Source: a bacterium (GTDB lineage: Bacteria > Bacillota_I > Bacilli_A > RF39 > UBA660). Taken from it: a stretch of DNA of 32,166 nt. Positions 5,024 to 32,166 of this stretch are shown in pieces (position 1 is the stretch's first letter; each line of letters begins with the position of its first letter). The stretch is taken from contig JAQXHT010000051.1 in the NCBI GenBank assembly GCA_029007415.1, positions 1-32,166 of the forward strand, read 5' to 3'. The notes beneath the pieces were generated by a model. That model did no database searches and had not been told where the DNA came from. It worked only from the letters and a program-made list of their open reading frames with translations. Position numbers and translations under genes: made by a program.

Positions 5024-5480
5024 TTTTTTCACCCTTCCATAGTTCATAGATAAGTAGTAAAACTCCAATCACAATTAGCATATCAGCAAAATTAAAAATT
5101 GGAAAGTGATAATTAAATATTATAACACTAATATAATCAATTACATAATTAAGTACTAAACGGTCATAGAAATTACCAAGTATTCCTCCTAGAATCATTA
5201 TATAAGAGATATTTAGTAATGTTTTATTTTTCTTACTTATTAGTTCTTTATAAATTACTAAAAATGCTAGTAAGGAAAGAATAGCAAGAAGAGTGGTTTT
5301 TCCTTCCATAAGAGAAAAAGCCGCTCCAATATTTTTTACATAGACTAAAGATACGAAGTTTGGTATTAGAGTAACAGTGCCTTTTAGGTAATTAACTACT
5401 AATACTTTAAATAATCTATCTATTAAAAATAAAATAATTATTACTACCGTATATTTTAGCTTATCTTTCATCAGTAACAC
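5004..5480 (-). CDS. lspA: Lipoprotein signal peptidase (signal peptidase II)
   Basis: ORF; NIGAAFSLMEG and GILGNFYDRL...VIDYI...FNFADMLI motifs. Confidence 0.9.
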   Translation of the reverse strand: MLLMKDKLKYTVVIIILFLIDRLFKVLVVNYLKGTVTLIPNFVSLVYVKNIGAAFSLMEGKTTLLAILSLLAFLVIYKELISKKNKTLLNISYIMILGGILGNFYDRLVLNYVIDYISVIIFNYHFPIFNFADMLIVIGVLLLIYELWKGEKNEVRNK

Positions 5481-8367
5481 CTATTTCTTCTATCTGACTA
5501 ACAATCATTTGAATTTGGTCGTATCGCTTTTCTACTCTTCCCACTATTTTATAAAGATGACCTTTCTTTAATTCTATATTATTCCAAATTTTCGGAAAGA
5601 AGGTATAATCGACACTTCCTGTTTCGTCACTACAACTAGCAAAAGCCATTTTATCACCTTTTTTAGTAGTTATTTCTTTAATACTTTCTACTAATACAAC
5701 TGTTGTTACTAATTTATCAAAGTATTTATTTAGTTGTTCTAAAGAAATACAGTTAGTAACTGTTCCTTTATAACTAGTCGCAGGATGATTACTTATATAA
5801 AGACCAAATAAGTCTTTTTCTTGTTCTAGCAATAAATAGTTATCATATTCATCTACTACTTCAATATCTGGTATTAAGACTAAACTAGGGTCTAAATCTT
5901 TAACTAGTTCGCCATAATTATATAAAGAGTCTAGGTTCATTATTAAAGTTCGTTTGTTATATTTAAAGTTTCTAAAACAATCAGCTAGTATTAGAGTTTC
6001 GAGTTGCTTTTTGGTTATTCCTTCTCCTACTAGTTCTCTAATCGCTTCAAAGATATCAGTAAATTTTTCTTTTCTTGCTTTAATAACTGTTCTTGAAACA
6101 CTAACTCCAATTCCTTTAATGGTAGAAAAGGGAAATACTATTTTACCAGCAATAACTTTAAAGACATCTTCACTCTCATTAATATCTGGTTTTACCACCT
6201 CGATTTTAACACTTCTAACTTCTCTTATATATTCGTTTAGTTTACTTTCTACACCGATAACATTTGTTAATAAGTTGGTATAAAAATAAAGTGAGTAATG
6301 AACTTTTAAATAAGCCATTTTATAAGCAACCATTGAGTAGGCTACCGCATGACTTCTATTAAAACCATAACCAGCAAATTTTAGAATTTGAGCAAATAAT
6401 TCTTTCGAAATAGTTTCATTCTTTCCTAGTTCTTTAGCTTTACGTAAAAATCTTTCTTCTTCTTTTTCTAAGACATCTTTTTTCTTTTTGCTTATCGCCC
6501 TTCTTAATATATCTGCTTCTCCTAAAGAGTAACCAGCATAAGAACTAACTGTTTGCATTACTTGTTCCTGATAAATCATAATACCATACGTTTTCTTTAG
6601 AATGGGCTCTAGACAGTTATCTAAGTAGGTTACTGTCTCCTTGCCTTCTTTTCTTTTAATATAAGTGTCTATATTAGCAGCAGGTCCTGGTCTAAATAAT
6701 GCTATAGCAGCAACAATATCTTCAAAATTAGCGGGTTTTAAATCTCTTAAGAATTTACGCATTCCACTAGATTCAAACTGAAAGATACCTGTTGTGAAGG
6801 CTTTACTAAATAATTGATAACAAGCTGAATCATTAAGAGTAATATCATAGAATGGAATCTTTATTCCTTGAAACTTTTCAATATCTTTTAAGATATTCAT
6901 AATTAAAGTAAGATTTTTAATTCCTAGAAAATCCATCTTTAAAAGTCCTAGTTCTTCTAGATAATTCATTGAATAACTAGTTAAGTACATACCGTCACTC
7001 ATAGTAAGAGGTAATACTTCATCGAGTTCTTTCTGACACATTACTATTCCAGCAGCATGCGTTCCAATCTGTCTTGGAAAGCCTTCTAATCTACTTGCTA
7101 TTAAATAGACACTTCTAAGTCCTTCATCACTATCTATTTCACTTTTGAATAACTTATCATTTTGATAATAATAGTTAAGTGTTTCTTTACTCATCGGCGG
7201 AATAAAAGAGTTTAAATGATCTATTTTATAGTTCGGTATTTTTAAAACTCTTGCTACATCTCTTAAGACTTGTTTAGCAGAAAGGGTTGAGAAAGTAACT
7301 ATTCCAGCAACTTTCTTTTCGCCATACTTTTCTTTGACATAATTAATAACATCTTCACGATACATATCAGGTAAATCCGTATCAATATCAGGCATACTAA
7401 CTCGTTCTGGATTTAAGAATCGTTCAAATAGTAAATCATATTTTAAAGGATCTATTTCAGTTATTCCTAAAGAGTAAGCTACTAAGCTACCAGCAGCACT
7501 TCCCCTACCTGGTCCTACTAAGATATTATTTTTCTTAGCATATAATATGAAGTCATATACTACTAAAAAGTAGTTAGAAAAGCCCATTTTTTTAATAATA
7601 GATAATTCATAGATTAATCTATCGAAATAATTTTTTAAGACATTACCTTTTAGTCGTTTAGTTAAACCTTTAATAGCTAATTCTTTTAAATAAGTGTCAG
7701 CATCTAAGTTATTAGGGCAGTTATAAATAGGTAGTAACAATTCTGCCTTAGGAAAAGTAATATTACATTTATTAATTATTTCTAAGCAAGTTTTATCACT
7801 AACAAATTCTTTATCAGTTAAGTCATAGTGCATTTCATCATAGATACTTTTACCATCACGTATTAAATATAAATATTTTAAATAGTCAGCTTCTTGTTTT
7901 TCCTTATATAAGCATTCTCTTAAGAATACAACTTTTTCTGTTAATTCTAAGGCTTTAGTTCTTTCTTCTTCCGTTTTATATCCTAGGTATATTGAAGGCG
8001 TAGTTATTTCTTTTAATAATTCTCTACTCTCATAGGGAAGACAGATAATAAGTTCTTCTTGATAATTATTTAAATCAGCAAGTTCTACTCTACTAGTATT
8101 AGCAAGAGTTGATAATTTAATCAAATGCAAATAACCAGTATAACTCTTAGCATAACAAAGAACTATTCTATCTGCTATCTTTAATTCTAGACCAATAACA
8201 GGTTTTATTCCCTTTAAATTACATTTCTTAATAAACTCCATTGTTCCATACATAGTATTATCAGTAATAACAGCATAGTCATTGCCTCTAGCAGCATTTA
8301 ATTCAATAATATCATCTACTGATAAAAGGCTAGATAACAAGGAATAATAACTTTTAACATATAACAT
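5461..8367 (-). CDS. dnaE: DNA polymerase III subunit alpha
   Basis: ORF 968 aa; PHP N-terminus, VGPGRGSAAGSLVAYSLGITEIDPLKYDLLFERFLNPERVSMPDIDTD. Confidence 0.95.
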   Translation of the reverse strand: MLYVKSYYSLLSSLLSVDDIIELNAARGNDYAVITDNTMYGTMEFIKKCNLKGIKPVIGLELKIADRIVLCYAKSYTGYLHLIKLSTLANTSRVELADLNNYQEELIICLPYESRELLKEITTPSIYLGYKTEEERTKALELTEKVVFLRECLYKEKQEADYLKYLYLIRDGKSIYDEMHYDLTDKEFVSDKTCLEIINKCNITFPKAELLLPIYNCPNNLDADTYLKELAIKGLTKRLKGNVLKNYFDRLIYELSIIKKMGFSNYFLVVYDFILYAKKNNILVGPGRGSAAGSLVAYSLGITEIDPLKYDLLFERFLNPERVSMPDIDTDLPDMYREDVINYVKEKYGEKKVAGIVTFSTLSAKQVLRDVARVLKIPNYKIDHLNSFIPPMSKETLNYYYQNDKLFKSEIDSDEGLRSVYLIASRLEGFPRQIGTHAAGIVMCQKELDEVLPLTMSDGMYLTSYSMNYLEELGLLKMDFLGIKNLTLIMNILKDIEKFQGIKIPFYDITLNDSACYQLFSKAFTTGIFQFESSGMRKFLRDLKPANFEDIVAAIALFRPGPAANIDTYIKRKEGKETVTYLDNCLEPILKKTYGIMIYQEQVMQTVSSYAGYSLGEADILRRAISKKKKDVLEKEEERFLRKAKELGKNETISKELFAQILKFAGYGFNRSHAVAYSMVAYKMAYLKVHYSLYFYTNLLTNVIGVESKLNEYIREVRSVKIEVVKPDINESEDVFKVIAGKIVFPFSTIKGIGVSVSRTVIKARKEKFTDIFEAIRELVGEGITKKQLETLILADCFRNFKYNKRTLIMNLDSLYNYGELVKDLDPSLVLIPDIEVVDEYDNYLLLEQEKDLFGLYISNHPATSYKGTVTNCISLEQLNKYFDKLVTTVVLVESIKEITTKKGDKMAFASCSDETGSVDYTFFPKIWNNIELKKGHLYKIVGRVEKRYDQIQMIVSQIEEIGVTDER

Positions 8368-26472: not shown

Positions 26473-27600
26473 CTATCTTTTCATTTTTAAATCATTACGA
26501 TAGCAGAAACTACCGCTATCAGCACTTTTTAGAAAGCCATTATAACTTGCTAAGGTTTGTTCTAACTTTTCTGGTTCATGTTTTCTAACGTATTTTACTC
26601 GTTTTTTTATTTTTCGTTTAGTCTTGCCATTTATTAGCATTAATAGTCTTTTATTCTTTAAAACAAAGCGATACCCTAGAAAACAAAAGCCATGATGAAT
26701 TTCTACTATCTGTGTCTTTCTATTAAGTTTTAGTTTTACTTCATCTAATTTCTTTTCTATTTCTTTTAAACAGTATTTAAGATATTCTCTATCTTCATGA
26801 AATAAAATGAAATCATCCATATATCTAACGTAGCATTTTATTCTTAGCTTTTCTTTAATAAAATGATCTAAGTCATTTAAATAATAAACTGCTAATATTT
26901 GACTAGTCATATTACCTATTGGTAGTCCTTTTCCTTTTTGATAAAGTGGTATTGATTCAAGAGACTTAATATGACTTTCGCAATCTCTAATACCTAGTTT
27001 TTTAACTCTTTCAATTTCACTTTCTACTGATTTTTTAATTTCTTCATTAACATAATTATAATTAGTACTAATAATTATTTCTTTTACCATATTAAATATA
27101 CGTTCATCTTTAATAAGCTTAGTTAGCTTATCAAGAAGTATTTCTTGGTCTATTGAATAAAAGTATTTTGATATATCACATTTAAGTACATATATTTTAT
27201 CATGATTTTCCTTCATTTTATTAATGTACTTTTTCACATAATATATTCCTTTACTTGAACCCATAAGTGGTCTTGTAGCTACATTCATTGGTAGTAAAAG
27301 TGGATCAATTAAAGGAAAAAGAAAATAAGTACTAACTAAGTGATTAACTATTTTATCTGGCATTGTTTCACTCATAATCAAACGATATTTCGGCTCTTTA
27401 ATTATAAAGATATGATATTTTTGATGATGATAAGCTTCCTCTTTTAAGGTATTGTAAATTGACATAATATTGCAAGAAAAAAATAGTTCAAATATGAAAA
27501 TCTTATCCTTGTGTTTAGTATTTTTGCGAACGGTATTATAAACATTAGTAAGATTTTCTATCGTAACTACTTCTTCATAACTAAGTGCTTTGCTTTTCAC
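26473..27600 (-). CDS. DGR reverse transcriptase
   Basis: ORF 375 aa; KCDISKYFYSID, KGLPIGNMTSQILAVYYLNDLDHF (DGR-type (I/L)GxxxSQ rather than QGxxxSP), CYVRYMDDFILFHED catalytic motif; adjacent TR/VR with A-specific differences. Confidence 0.96.
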   Translation of the reverse strand: MKSKALSYEEVVTIENLTNVYNTVRKNTKHKDKIFIFELFFSCNIMSIYNTLKEEAYHHQKYHIFIIKEPKYRLIMSETMPDKIVNHLVSTYFLFPLIDPLLLPMNVATRPLMGSSKGIYYVKKYINKMKENHDKIYVLKCDISKYFYSIDQEILLDKLTKLIKDERIFNMVKEIIISTNYNYVNEEIKKSVESEIERVKKLGIRDCESHIKSLESIPLYQKGKGLPIGNMTSQILAVYYLNDLDHFIKEKLRIKCYVRYMDDFILFHEDREYLKYCLKEIEKKLDEVKLKLNRKTQIVEIHHGFCFLGYRFVLKNKRLLMLINGKTKRKIKKRVKYVRKHEPEKLEQTLASYNGFLKSADSGSFCYRNDLKMKR

Positions 27601-27937
27601 TCCTAATCACCCCATAAGAAATTTTTCTGATTTCAATTAAAAAATTACTAACTGACTCGTACTTCTTATGGCTAATAATTTTTTTCTTATAACTAACATG
27701 CATATAATAATCGAGCATAGAAATTTGAATAACTAGTGCTTTTAGATATTTAAGTTTAATTCTATTAGTATCCTCGATTCGGTAAGAAAAAATATTTTCA
27801 ATTATCAAATACATAGTTTTTTCGATATTTTGTTTTAATATCACTTCATTTTTAGGATAGTTAATTAATTGTTTGTTAATATAATCAATCGTTTTTTCAC
27901 TATTAGATAAAAGTCTAAAACTATCATTGGAGTCCAT
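27581..27937 (-). CDS. avd: Avd-like DGR accessory variability determinant (four-helix protein)
   Basis: 118-aa helical basic ORF overlapping the RT start by 20 bp; position and composition. Confidence 0.75.
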   Translation of the reverse strand: MDSNDSFRLLSNSEKTIDYINKQLINYPKNEVILKQNIEKTMYLIIENIFSYRIEDTNRIKLKYLKALVIQISMLDYYMHVSYKKKIISHKKYESVSNFLIEIRKISYGVIRSEKQST

Positions 27938-28331
27938 CGATAAACTCCTTAATTTTATTATAATTTTCAGAACTATTAGAAATTAACATTTCAATTCTTT
28001 TCATTAATAATTCATGGGAACATTTGCTGTAATAACTTTTCTGAGCAATAGCTGATATATCTTTATATAGATTATCATCACTCATATAACTAGTTATTTC
28101 TTCATTTTCTACGATGTAAAAAGAAATATTCTTATCACGTAAATTTTTTGTTACTTTAGTAAGTGCTGCTACTGGGAATCCTAATTTTTCATTATTAATT
28201 TGGTATGAAAAAAGATAATTCATAGTTATAGCATCAAATCCAAAAGTAACATAAAAACTGCCTACTTTTAAGAGAACTATTTCTTCTTGATGTTGTTTTT
28301 TCAACTCTTCATACTTTTCTTTTACTTTCAT
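27924..28331 (-). CDS. MutS-domain-I-like (MSL-type) DGR accessory protein
   Basis: LKKQHQEEIVLLKVGSFYVTFGFDAITMNYLFSYQ...GFPVAALTKVTKNLRDKNISFYIVE resembles the MutS mismatch-binding N-terminal domain; start at 28331 with AGGAGTAAA RBS (track ORF to 28418 is N-extended into TR cassette 1). Confidence 0.7.
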   Translation of the reverse strand: MKVKEKYEELKKQHQEEIVLLKVGSFYVTFGFDAITMNYLFSYQINNEKLGFPVAALTKVTKNLRDKNISFYIVENEEITSYMSDDNLYKDISAIAQKSYYSKCSHELLMKRIEMLISNSSENYNKIKEFIDGLQ

Positions 28332-28350
28332 TTTACTCCTATAATAGTTA

Positions 28351-28732
28351 TGCCAAAGATTAATCTTGTTTCCAATCTTTAGATTATGAGTTATATCATT
28401 ACTTCCTCTAGTTACCAACCTTAATCAATAACATACGGTTAGATTAGCAATAATTATACTAATTCGTAGTAGGAATCTGGACGGGCCCCGAAGGAATTCG
28501 TGACGTTGTTCCAATGATTCAGACTGCCTGAAGGATTCACGTTCCAAACGTTCGCATTAGAGTTGTTAGACTCAAAGTTAGACGGAGACAGCGAAGTTCT
28601 AAGCTCTGAATGCAACACAAACCTGAAAGGTCCGTTAGTAGATTAACCTCACTTACTATATTTTTTCAATGTATCAATATTTTCTCAAATAATAATATTA
28701 GCTAAGAAAAGTATACATTATTTTTTCTGGCA
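28351..28732 (-). ncRNA. DGR TR cassette 1 (TR core 28477..28592)
   Basis: TR core reads LSPSNFESNNSNANVWNVNPSGSLNHWNNVTNSFGARP; terminal TATGCCA/TGGCATA; conserved flanks. Confidence 0.9.
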
Positions 28733-29365
28733 TATAGTTTTTAAAGTAGATTTTAGTTAAATTGCAAGAATTACTAATTTACCTATATATGATGTTAGTT
28801 TTATTTTATAGATAAACGGATACTTACATGTCATATGACAGATATTTTTAAGTAAAACTATGCATGACACAAATTATTTTTCACTACTAGCATATTAGTA
28901 AATATGCCTTACTAGCTCCTATGGTATTTAATTATCTTTAGTAGTTAAATTTAACTGTAATAAACAACTATATATATTATTATCAGTCTTTTTCATAATC
29001 CGTACGAGGTGTCATTACCCCTGTTTCTTTCCGTTAGTATCTATTAGTGTCAAATAATAGATATATTACTCCGCTATAAGTTTTGTATTTTGAGTTATTT
29101 TCTTAATTTATATTAGTATTAAAATAATACAAAAATAAATTTCTTTCTATATCTTTTAATAATAGTAAAAAGTATTTTAAAGATTATAGATAAAGTCATT
29201 ACTCAAAACAAAATTACCATATTTTACCATAGATTTCCCCTCATCATCCATAATAATGGTAACATATCGTTTGAGAATTTTCAATATTTATTCTCAAGTA
29301 TGAATATATTTATACAAGAAAAAAAGCAAAAACTTTTTTAATAATTTTTACTTTTGTTATTGTTA

Positions 29366-29740
29366 TGCCAAAGATTAATCTTGTTTCCAATCTTACAGAT
29401 TATGAGTTGGCTCATTACTTCCTCTAGTTATTAACCTTAATCAATAACATACGGTTAGATTAGCAATGATTATACTAATTTGTAGTAGGAATCTGGACGG
29501 GCCCCGAAGGAATTCGTGACGTTGTTTCCGTTATTCAAGCTGCCTGAAGGATTCACGTTCCAAACATTTGCATTAGAGTTGTTTGAATTGAAGTTAGACG
29601 GAGACAGCAAACTTCTAAAAACTAATACTAGAAGGAAAAAACCGTTATTAGACTAACCTTATTTATATTCTTTTAATGTACCAATATTTTCTTGAATAGT
29701 TAACACCAGTCAAAAAAAGTATACATCATATTTCTTGGCA
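29366..29740 (-). ncRNA. DGR TR cassette 2 (TR core 29493..29608)
   Basis: LSPSNFNSNNSNANVWNVNPSGSLNNGNNVTNSFGARP. Confidence 0.9.
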
Positions 29741-29776
29741 TAGTATTTAAAAACTACTTTGTCTTAATTATGGTTA

Positions 29777-30154
29777 TGCCAAAGATTAATCTTGTTTCCA
29801 ATCTTACAGATTATGAGTTATCTCATTACTTCCTCTAGTTACCAACCTTAATCAATAACATACGGTTTAGATTAGCAATAATTGTACTAACTTGTAGTAG
29901 GAATCTGGACGGGCCCCGAAGGAATTCGTGACGTTATTCCAGTCAATCAGACCGCCCGAAGGAAGGACGTTCCAAACGTTCGCATTAGAGTTGTTTGAAT
30001 TGAAGTTAGACGGAGACAGCAAACTTCTAAAAACTAATGCTAGAAAAAGTCTAAAACCGTTATTAGATTAACCTTTATCATTTTCTTTTAATGTACCAAT
30101 ATTTTTTTAAATAATTAGTTTAGCTAAAAAACGTATACATTATTTTTTTTGGCA
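29777..30154 (-). ncRNA. DGR TR cassette 3 (TR core 29905..30020), template of the VR in this window
   Basis: LSPSNFNSNNSNANVWNVLPSGGLIDWNNVTNSFGARP; only TR whose non-A bases all match VR. Confidence 0.96.
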
Positions 30155-30233
30155 TAACATAGGAAAAATAATACTCCTTTATTTTTTTAAATGCAAGCGA
30201 TTTTATATTTTAAAAATAAACAATTATAGCTTG

Positions 30234-30590
30234 TGTCAAAGATTAATCTTGTTTCCAATCTTACAGATTATGAGTTAGCTCATTACTTCCTCTAGTTAGT
30301 AACCTTAATCAATAACATACGGTTTAGATTAGCAATGATTATACTAATTTGTAGTAGGAATCTGGACGGGCCCCGAAGGAATTTGTTACATCACGATTAT
30401 TCAGGCTGCCTGAAGAAAACACGCTCCAAATATCTATTATAGAATAATTAGAATTGAAATAAAACGGAGACAGCAATATCTTTAATGCTTAGAACCTCGC
30501 ATTAGATTAACCTTGTTATTATTGCAATGTACAAATATTTTCTTAGCAATAATTATTAACTGAGAAAAGTATACATTATTTTTTCTGACA
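30234..30590 (-). ncRNA. DGR TR cassette 4 (TR core 30362..30474, 113 nt), most divergent
   Basis: LSPFYFNSNYSIIDIWSVFSSGSLNNRDVTNSFGARP; ends TGTCA/TGACA. Confidence 0.85.
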
Positions 30591-30629
30591 CTTTTGATAG
30601 AAAAATTATATTTTTATTTAAAATTAATA

Positions 30630-31009
30630 TGCCAAAGATTAATCTTGTTTCCAATCTTTTAGATTATGAGTTAGCTCATTACTTCCTCTAGTTATTAACC
30701 TTAATCAATAACATACGGTTTAGATTAGCAATGATTATACTAATTTGTAGTAGGAATCTGGACGGGCCCCGAAGGAATTCTCGACACTACCCCAATGATT
30801 CAACATGCCTGAAGGATTCACGTTCCAAACATTCGCACTAGAGTTATTTGAATTGAAGTTAGACGGAGACAGCGAACTTCTAAAACTAATGCTAGAATGG
30901 ATCAAAACCGCTATTAGATTAACCTTATATTATTTTTTATTATCAATGCACCAATATTCTTACAAATAGTATTATTAGTTATAAGATGTATACATTATTT
31001 TTTCTGGCA
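30630..31009 (-). ncRNA. DGR TR cassette 5 (TR core 30758..30873)
   Basis: LSPSNFNSNNSSANVWNVNPSGMLNHWGSVENSFGARP. Confidence 0.9.
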
Positions 31010-31037
31010 TAAAATAATTTTGATATTTATATAGTAG

Positions 31038-31398
31038 TGCCAAAGATTAATCTTGTTTCCAATCTTACAGATTATGAGTTAGCTCATTACTTCCTCTAGT
31101 TACCAACCTTAATCAATAACATACGGTTAGATTAGCAATGATTATACTAATTTGTAGTAGGAATCTGGACGGGCCCCGAAGGAATTATTGACGTTATTCC
31201 AGTCAAGACTGCCTGAAGGCTGCACCGTCCAAACGTTAGCGTGAGAATTACCTGAGTTGAATTTAGACGGAGACAGTGAAAAAGAAATCCAAGTGAGAGA
31301 ACCGTTTTTAGATTAACCTTTTCTTTATGTTCAATGTACCAATATTTTTTCTGAATAATTAATTTAATCAAAGAAAGTATACATTATTTTTTCTGGCA
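31038..31398 (-). ncRNA. DGR TR cassette 6 (TR core 31165..31277, 113 nt)
   Basis: LSPSKFNSGNSHANVWTVQPSGSLDWNNVNNSFGARP; ends GTGCCA/TGGCAC. Confidence 0.9.
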
Positions 31399-31442
31399 CG
31401 TTTTAAGTAATATAAATTTTTTCAAATATATTTTATAGATGT

Positions 31443-31808
31443 ATGCCAAAGATTAATCTTGTTTCCAATCTTTAGATTATGAGTTAACTCATTACTTCCT
31501 CTAGTTATCAACCTTAATCAATAACATACGGTTAGATTAGCAATGATTATACTAATTTGTAGTAGGAATCTGGACGGGCCCCGAAGGAATTTGCAACATA
31601 CGTCCAATCATTCAGACTGCCCGAAGGATTCACGTTCCAAACGTTCGACTGTGAGTTGTTTGAATCGAAGTTAGACGGAGACAGCGAAAGGACAAACAAA
31701 CAGAAAGAGTCCGTTAGTAGATTAACCTTATTTATATTTATTTAATGCATCAATATTCTTACAAATAATTATATTAGTTGCAAGATGTATACATTACCTT
31801 TTCTGGCA
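31443..31808 (-). ncRNA. DGR TR cassette 7 (TR core 31570..31685)
   Basis: LSPSNFDSNNSQSNVWNVNPSGSLNDWTYVANSFGARP. Confidence 0.9.
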
Positions 31809-31816
31809 TAAATTAA

Positions 31817-31842
31817 AGGCAAAATGATGAGTCATTTTGCCT
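31817..31842 (-). terminator. Terminator of the DGR target gene
   Basis: 11-bp perfect stem aggcaaaatga-tgag-tcattttgcct just past the TAG stop at 31848, separating target gene from TR array. Confidence 0.75.
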
Positions 31843-31847
31843 AGAAA

Positions 31848-32166
31848 CTAACTTATTGAAACAACATATGGATTTAAAGCAGTTCCATCTCCCTTGGTTA
31901 TCAGTGTATCAGCCTTTAGGTTGATAACTGGACGGGCCCCGAAGGAAGACGAGACGTAAATCCAGTCAAGCAGACCGCCCGAAGGAAGGACGTACCAAAC
32001 GTACGCAAGAGAGTAGTATGAAGAGAAGTAAGACGGAGACAGCGTCCAGAAATATTGGCCATTATATAGATAATAATTACTATTTGCTGTATTATATACT
32101 CCTCCAGCCATTGCTACTTCATCGGCTGTGATAAGTGAAACTGGATAGTCTAGTTTGGCACTTGCA
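31848..32166 (-). CDS. DGR target protein, C-terminal part (5' end beyond window)
   Basis: Reading frame stays open past the track start (32111) to the edge: ASAKLDYPVSLITADEVAMAGGVYNTANSNYYLYNGQYFWTLSPSYFSSYYSLAYVWYVLPSGGLLDWIYVSSSFGARPVINLKADTLITKGDGTALNPYVVSIS. Confidence 0.88.
   Translation of the reverse strand, partial: ASAKLDYPVSLITADEVAMAGGVYNTANSNYYLYNGQYFWTLSPSYFSSYYSLAYVWYVLPSGGLLDWIYVSSSFGARPVINLKADTLITKGDGTALNPYVVSIS
31928..32043 (-). repeat. DGR variable repeat (VR)
   Basis: 116 nt; 15 differences from TR3, all at TR adenines. Confidence 0.97.

Follow-up and report, generated by a model that had tools for sequence, protein, structure and literature searches.

Seven tandem template RNAs of a bacterial diversity-generating retroelement are very probably circularly permuted, with a local hairpin opened into a unit-closing helix

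In the prototype diversity-generating retroelement (DGR) of Bordetella phage BPP-1, the flanks of the template repeat (TR) are needed as RNA on both sides (PMC12875486) and a hairpin follows the variable repeat (VR) (PMC3240598); more than one TR per element has been reported for multi-TR DGRs (PMC6642488). Here the analysis concerned a DGR locus in a 32,166-nt stretch of DNA, referred to as the window (contig JAQXHT010000051.1 of assembly GCA_029007415.1), with a reverse transcriptase (RT), a bAvd, a MutS_I-like protein, seven TRs and a target gene. The locus resembles BPP-1 in having an RT with Avd, adenine mutagenesis and a hairpin after the VR, whereas BPP-1 has a single TR, located between avd and brt. 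With the multi-TR DGRs it shares the presence of several TRs, but neither a permuted DGR RNA nor a unit-closing helix was described in the open-access literature searched. The canonical TR RNAs of related DGRs from uncultured gut Bacilli (L084, L007, L073 and L144) contain P1, a 3' domain, P2 and P3 as in the window, and their loci share its RT/Avd/MutS_I operon and adenine-specific TR-VR differences; in these RNAs P2 is a local hairpin with P3 located 3' of it, whereas the window units have P3 on the 5' side of the TR, and their P2 joins the ends. A comparable reordering is found in permuted tRNA genes and two-piece tmRNA, where a structured RNA gene is rearranged so that the old ends are joined and the former loop carries the new ends, and where end processing is established; the window RNA differs in being a reverse-transcription template whose end processing is hypothetical.

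The RT was assigned to the DGR type from its RVT_1 match and from the loci of its relatives, which carry TR, VR and Avd, and the Avd was recognized by a bAvd match below the curated cut-off (Table 1). TR adenines are replaced in the VR on the minus strand, giving an RNA of minus sense, so that the 5' end of each unit RNA lies at the higher coordinate; the seven units together occupy 28349-31810. No Rfam family reached its gathering score within the window. Judged from its sequence and position, the stem-loop between c7 and the target gene is a putative counterpart of the DGR hairpin/cruciform found after the VR, and equivalent stem-loops were present in two relatives, L167 and L291. The MutS_I-like protein comprises barely more than MutS domain I and has the same place in the operon of relatives such as L167; it might disturb mismatch repair of A-mutated cDNA heteroduplexes. 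A second RT, 42% identical, occurs in the genome of the window (L097, G000:C67:11295-12257), and the 3' domain model described below matches nothing in its surroundings.

Table 1. Features of the DGR locus in the window, with the components of each unit given from 5' to 3' of the RNA
Feature	Position	Strand	Basis or components	End pair (5'/3')
Reverse transcriptase	26473-27600	-	Pfam RVT_1, E 1.5e-18	
bAvd-like accessory variability determinant	27581-27937	-	Pfam bAvd, E 2e-7, 32 bits (curated cut-off 40 not reached)	
MutS domain I-like accessory protein	27924-28334	-	Pfam MutS_I, E 3e-8	
Permuted unit c1 (last before operon, no tail behind)	28349-28734	-	P2 5'-end arm 28728-28734; P3 28668-28719; P1 5' strand 28641-28650; TR 28479-28592; 3' domain 28366-28478; P1 3' strand 28356-28365; P2 3'-end arm 28349-28355	TATGCCA/TGGCATA
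Permuted unit c2	29364-29742	-	P2 29736-29742; P3 29675-29727; P1 29651-29660; TR 29495-29608; 3' domain 29381-29494; P1 29371-29380; P2 29364-29370	TATGCCA/TGGCATA
Permuted unit c3 (donor of the in-window VR)	29773-30158	-	P2 30150-30158; P3 30090-30141; P1 30066-30075; TR 29907-30020; 3' domain 29792-29906; P1 29782-29791; P2 29773-29781	GTTATGCCA/TGGCATAAC
Permuted unit c4	30233-30591	-	P2 30586-30591; P3 30526-30577; P1 30505-30514; TR 30364-30474; 3' domain 30249-30363; P1 30239-30248; P2 30233-30238	GTGTCA/TGACAC
Permuted unit c5	30628-31011	-	P2 31005-31011; P3 30945-30996; P1 30917-30926; TR 30760-30873; 3' domain 30645-30759; P1 30635-30644; P2 30628-30634	TATGCCA/TGGCATA
Permuted unit c6	31037-31399	-	P2 31394-31399; P3 31333-31385; P1 31311-31320; TR 31167-31277; 3' domain 31053-31166; P1 31043-31052; P2 31037-31042	GTGCCA/TGGCAC
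Permuted unit c7	31442-31810	-	P2 31804-31810; P3 31744-31795; P1 31720-31729; TR 31572-31685; 3' domain 31459-31571; P1 31449-31458; P2 31442-31448	TATGCCA/TGGCATA
Stem-loop 3' of VR, at the DGR target hairpin/cruciform position	31817-31842	-	11 pairs; stops 7 bases short of c7	
Target (variable) protein gene, truncated by contig end	31848-32165	-	VR 31930-32043	

Relatives were sought with the RT, with DNA and with covariance models, in GTDB contigs and in genomes sampled from the genus, family and order. These searches yielded about 75 distinct units whose 3' domain is related, nearly all in uncultured gut Bacilli, and 67 of those examined showed the canonical order P1 5' strand - TR - 3' domain - P1 3' strand - local P2 hairpin - P3 tail stem-loop. 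In canonical units the 3' domain ends in GGAAACAAGRUUAAUYCC or similar, followed by a small hairpin, some nine bases and a stem-loop with the consensus AAUAUAG-AU/AC-(helix)-UAUYN-CUAUAUU, after which usually comes the MutS_I gene or the next unit. P1, P3 and the 3' domain covary strongly. Specifically, the 3' domain model (R2) has five helices with 97.8% paired cells and 72 two-sided changes, a level reached in none of 500 shuffles, and 96.8% of P1 cells were paired over 47 distinct strand pairs, as compared with 78.7 +/- 1.3 for re-dealt strands. A tail covariance model (R1), built from the 3' tails of 24 relatives and no window sequence, showed two-sided changes in 13 of its 17 pairs. The local P2 hairpins of the 67 canonical units, which adjoin P1 directly or a few bases later, scored 10.3 versus 5.5 +/- 0.4 when shuffled. 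The template RNA of a gut DGR group that has no Rfam match thereby gains a secondary structure supported by covariation; in the BPP-1 TR flanks, simple folding gave no clear P1.

Canonical units also occur in arrays, as seen in L073, L144, L159 and L160, the largest with six units. In L144 (G398:C68, 2924-4289), four canonical units stand in tandem, and every one of them has a P1 sequence of its own, with the two strands matching. Units from genus g85, G519 and G460 gave no initial match to R1, yet showed the canonical order with diverged tails, and further tail matches in the genus were canonical wherever the 3' domain could be read; two weak tail matches, in L256 and L261, came with no visible 3' domain. 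A P1-P2 motif scan of the genus recovered the window array together with scattered single matches at the level of a reversed-pattern control; of the matches read, two sat in unrelated sequence. In viral contigs the RT relatives were only remote, and exact-pattern scans there gave nothing or one unrelated match.

The window units are homologous to the canonical ones, R2 matching all seven at 104-115 bits (two of them being in its training set), but their order is different. Run unfiltered over the whole window, R1 gave seven full-length matches (E 4e-7 to 2e-4), exactly at the seven unit 5' ends, with a next-best match at E 0.42 and no tail match after the last unit, c1. The tail has thus moved from 3' to 5' of the TR in every unit, and the canonical linear order, which finishes with the P2 hairpin and P3, is absent from the window. 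P2 is split, with its 3' arm and P3 placed at the 5' end of the unit and its 5' arm closing the 3' end: every unit opens with UAUGCC, followed after nine bases by a stem-loop sharing the AC/UAUUG internal loop with the relatives, and stops after the 5' arm of the P2 hairpin (UGGCAUA). The window is a contig from a metagenome-assembled, incomplete genome and repeat arrays may be misassembled; the order was identical in all seven units and in L167. A pairing drawn by hand between the 5' AAUAAUGUAUAC element and the stretch immediately following the TR did not hold in c4-c7 and was abandoned when P3 was recognized.

It is very probable that each cassette is a complete, circularly permuted DGR template RNA, in which the closing helix is P2 and the P1/P2/P3 junction is rebuilt in every unit. 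The RNA core would be a three-way junction in which P1 (10 bp) pairs the leader preceding the TR with the end of the 3' domain, P2 (6-9 bp) extends P1 on the same 3' strand, and P3 is the tail stem-loop with its asymmetric AC/UAUUG internal loop. In the canonical relatives, where P2 is a local hairpin, the junction would be open between P3 and P1, whereas in the window units this side would be closed by an unconserved linker of 11-18 nt and the P2 loop opened instead, so that P2 becomes a helix joining the 5' and 3' ends.

The complementary cassette ends described in the sequence-only reading are present in all seven units with the sequences it quoted, and the linkers flanking them are unrelated, as it had claimed (30-81 nt, and one of 635 nt). 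Contiguous Watson-Crick end matches from c7 to c1 are 7, 6, 7, 6, 9, 7 and 7 bp, the chance of 6 bp between two random sites of the locus being 0.0007. In c4 and c6 both arms depart from the common sequence, and each is matched solely in its own unit. Own-unit end pairing summed to 49, whereas the 5040 possible arm re-pairings averaged 39.3 (p=0.024, or 0.043 counting G-U). The proposed covariation of the ends therefore holds, although within the window its basis is two units and three changed pairs, thin because the seven units are near copies, and the strong support is external. In full-length folds of the window units (375-400 nt, TR included), the mean pair probability of P2 was 0.94-0.98 in all seven, that of P3 0.74-0.99, and that of P1 0.79-0.93 in six, with c6 at 0.10; swapping in the 3' arm of the other class abolished P2 in six units, while c4 retained it through G-U pairs. 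Pairing of P2 inside the units is supported but not proven, and the folds agree with the earlier view of a cassette as a discrete structural unit whose ends pair. The end helix would not, however, be an additional closure of an otherwise ordinary TR RNA: the main helix enclosing the TR is P1, just inside it, and the end helix corresponds to the canonical P2 hairpin opened by permutation.

The same arms could be read as belonging to a canonical array, the 3' arm of one unit pairing across the linker with the 5' arm of the next, in which case the permutation would be a matter of where the units are cut. Canonical arrays do occur in relatives, and most arms share a core, so several neighbours could cross-pair. 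However, arm pairing was 42 within the own unit versus 28 with the neighbouring unit, the changes in c4 and c6 are matched in their own unit alone, and P2 loops of 30-635 nt would be needed. This reading would also leave an orphan tail before c7 and no tail behind c1, which lacks one because its 3' arm leads into the ribosome-binding site and the beginning of the MutS_I gene, and the lone permuted unit of L167 (see below) has no preceding unit to own its tail. We regard it as improbable.

Two further explanations would place the function of the ends elsewhere, and both appear very improbable. As every copy is flanked by terminal inverted repeats between unrelated linkers, the repeats could mark the DNA-level ends by which the copies were spread, as in a small transposon or a recombination cassette; yet in single-copy relatives these ends correspond to both arms of an RNA hairpin that is conserved, there are no evident target duplications, the copies in the genome are confined to the window array, and from unit to unit the ends change in matched pairs, a pattern that would not be favoured by a common transposase. 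Alternatively, the conserved ends could be promoter or terminator elements of each unit with incidental complementarity, the 5' element holding TGTATAC, which resembles a -10 hexamer. Against this, promoter-like sites numbered 19 as compared with 18.8 +/- 4.2 in shuffles, no terminator-like site was found inside the array, and TGTATAC is one strand of the P3 stem.

TR-VR comparisons indicated which units serve as templates. Compared with TR c3, the in-window VR carries changes at 15 of the 24 TR adenines and at no other base (P=6e-13), and a VR on contig C88 carries 13 adenine changes, again with no others, so that c3 accounts for two VRs by 28 adenine-only differences; at least this unit, in the middle of the array, therefore is or recently was a working template. 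TR c1 differs from the VR on C77 by 12 adenine and two other changes, and from this comparison c1 is probably its donor. The VR at G000:C25:15524-15639 was nearest to TR c3 with five non-adenine differences, and its donor may have been altered or be missing from the assembly.

A second, independent permuted case was found in L167 (CALVTC010000006.1), an uncultured Bacilli contig with an RT 62% identical to that of the window. Its permuted unit lies behind the target gene, with the tail at 5340-5397 (28.5 bits), the 3' domain at 5542-5666 and P2 formed by AAATGCCA/TGGCATTT; this P2 pairs with itself over 8 bp, is unlike those of the window in sequence and forms at most 6 bp with the window arms. 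The order at this locus is target gene, permuted unit, a shortened unit keeping P1, canonical unit (tail at 6163-6229, 48 bits), MutS_I, Avd and RT. The canonical TR differs from the VR by 17 adenine changes and no others, and the permuted TR, itself altered, did not give rise to the adjacent VR. Specifically, the permuted TR (5435-5539) is VR-like, with 20 of 27 adenines changed plus nine other changes relative to the nearby canonical TR, and may have been overwritten by mutated cDNA. The shortened unit (5675-5880) consists of a leader, the TR, only AGATTCCTACTACAATTAGTAA... and the P1 3' strand (TAGATTAACCT), without the GGAAAC motif, P2 or P3. L291 and L292, two close relatives, also have a shortened unit upstream of the canonical one and no permuted unit; being kept in three genomes, the shortened unit may be functional. 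The mixed array of L167 looks like an evolutionary intermediate and suggests an origin of the permutation in a tandem duplication whose outer parts were then lost. Permutation was thus seen in two genomes, in eight units in total, the seven of the window being near copies.

Permutation of this kind amounts to a natural swap of the end order of a template RNA, and it hints that RT-Avd probably needs the P1/P2/P3 junction rather than a given terminal order. The best reading is that RT-Avd binds a compact P1/P2/P3 junction, which would be its requirement, while the strand ends are movable. As the junction would be rebuilt within each unit regardless of its flanks, seven templates can be placed in tandem ahead of a single RT-Avd operon, which suggests stackable template modules. 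More tentatively, and on balance doubtfully, the permuted TR RNAs might act as self-contained plug-in modules, an array transcript, whether cut or left uncut in the linkers, giving seven closed RNAs, each of which would load RT-Avd for its own set of targets, in the manner of the guides in a CRISPR array. Were this the case, templates could be gained or lost without upsetting the operon.

The 635-nt non-coding gap (28740-29345) separating c2 from c1 is far longer than the other linkers of the array. This gap matched neither RNA model and is less AT-rich near 28999-29035; it is possibly a decayed unit or another element.
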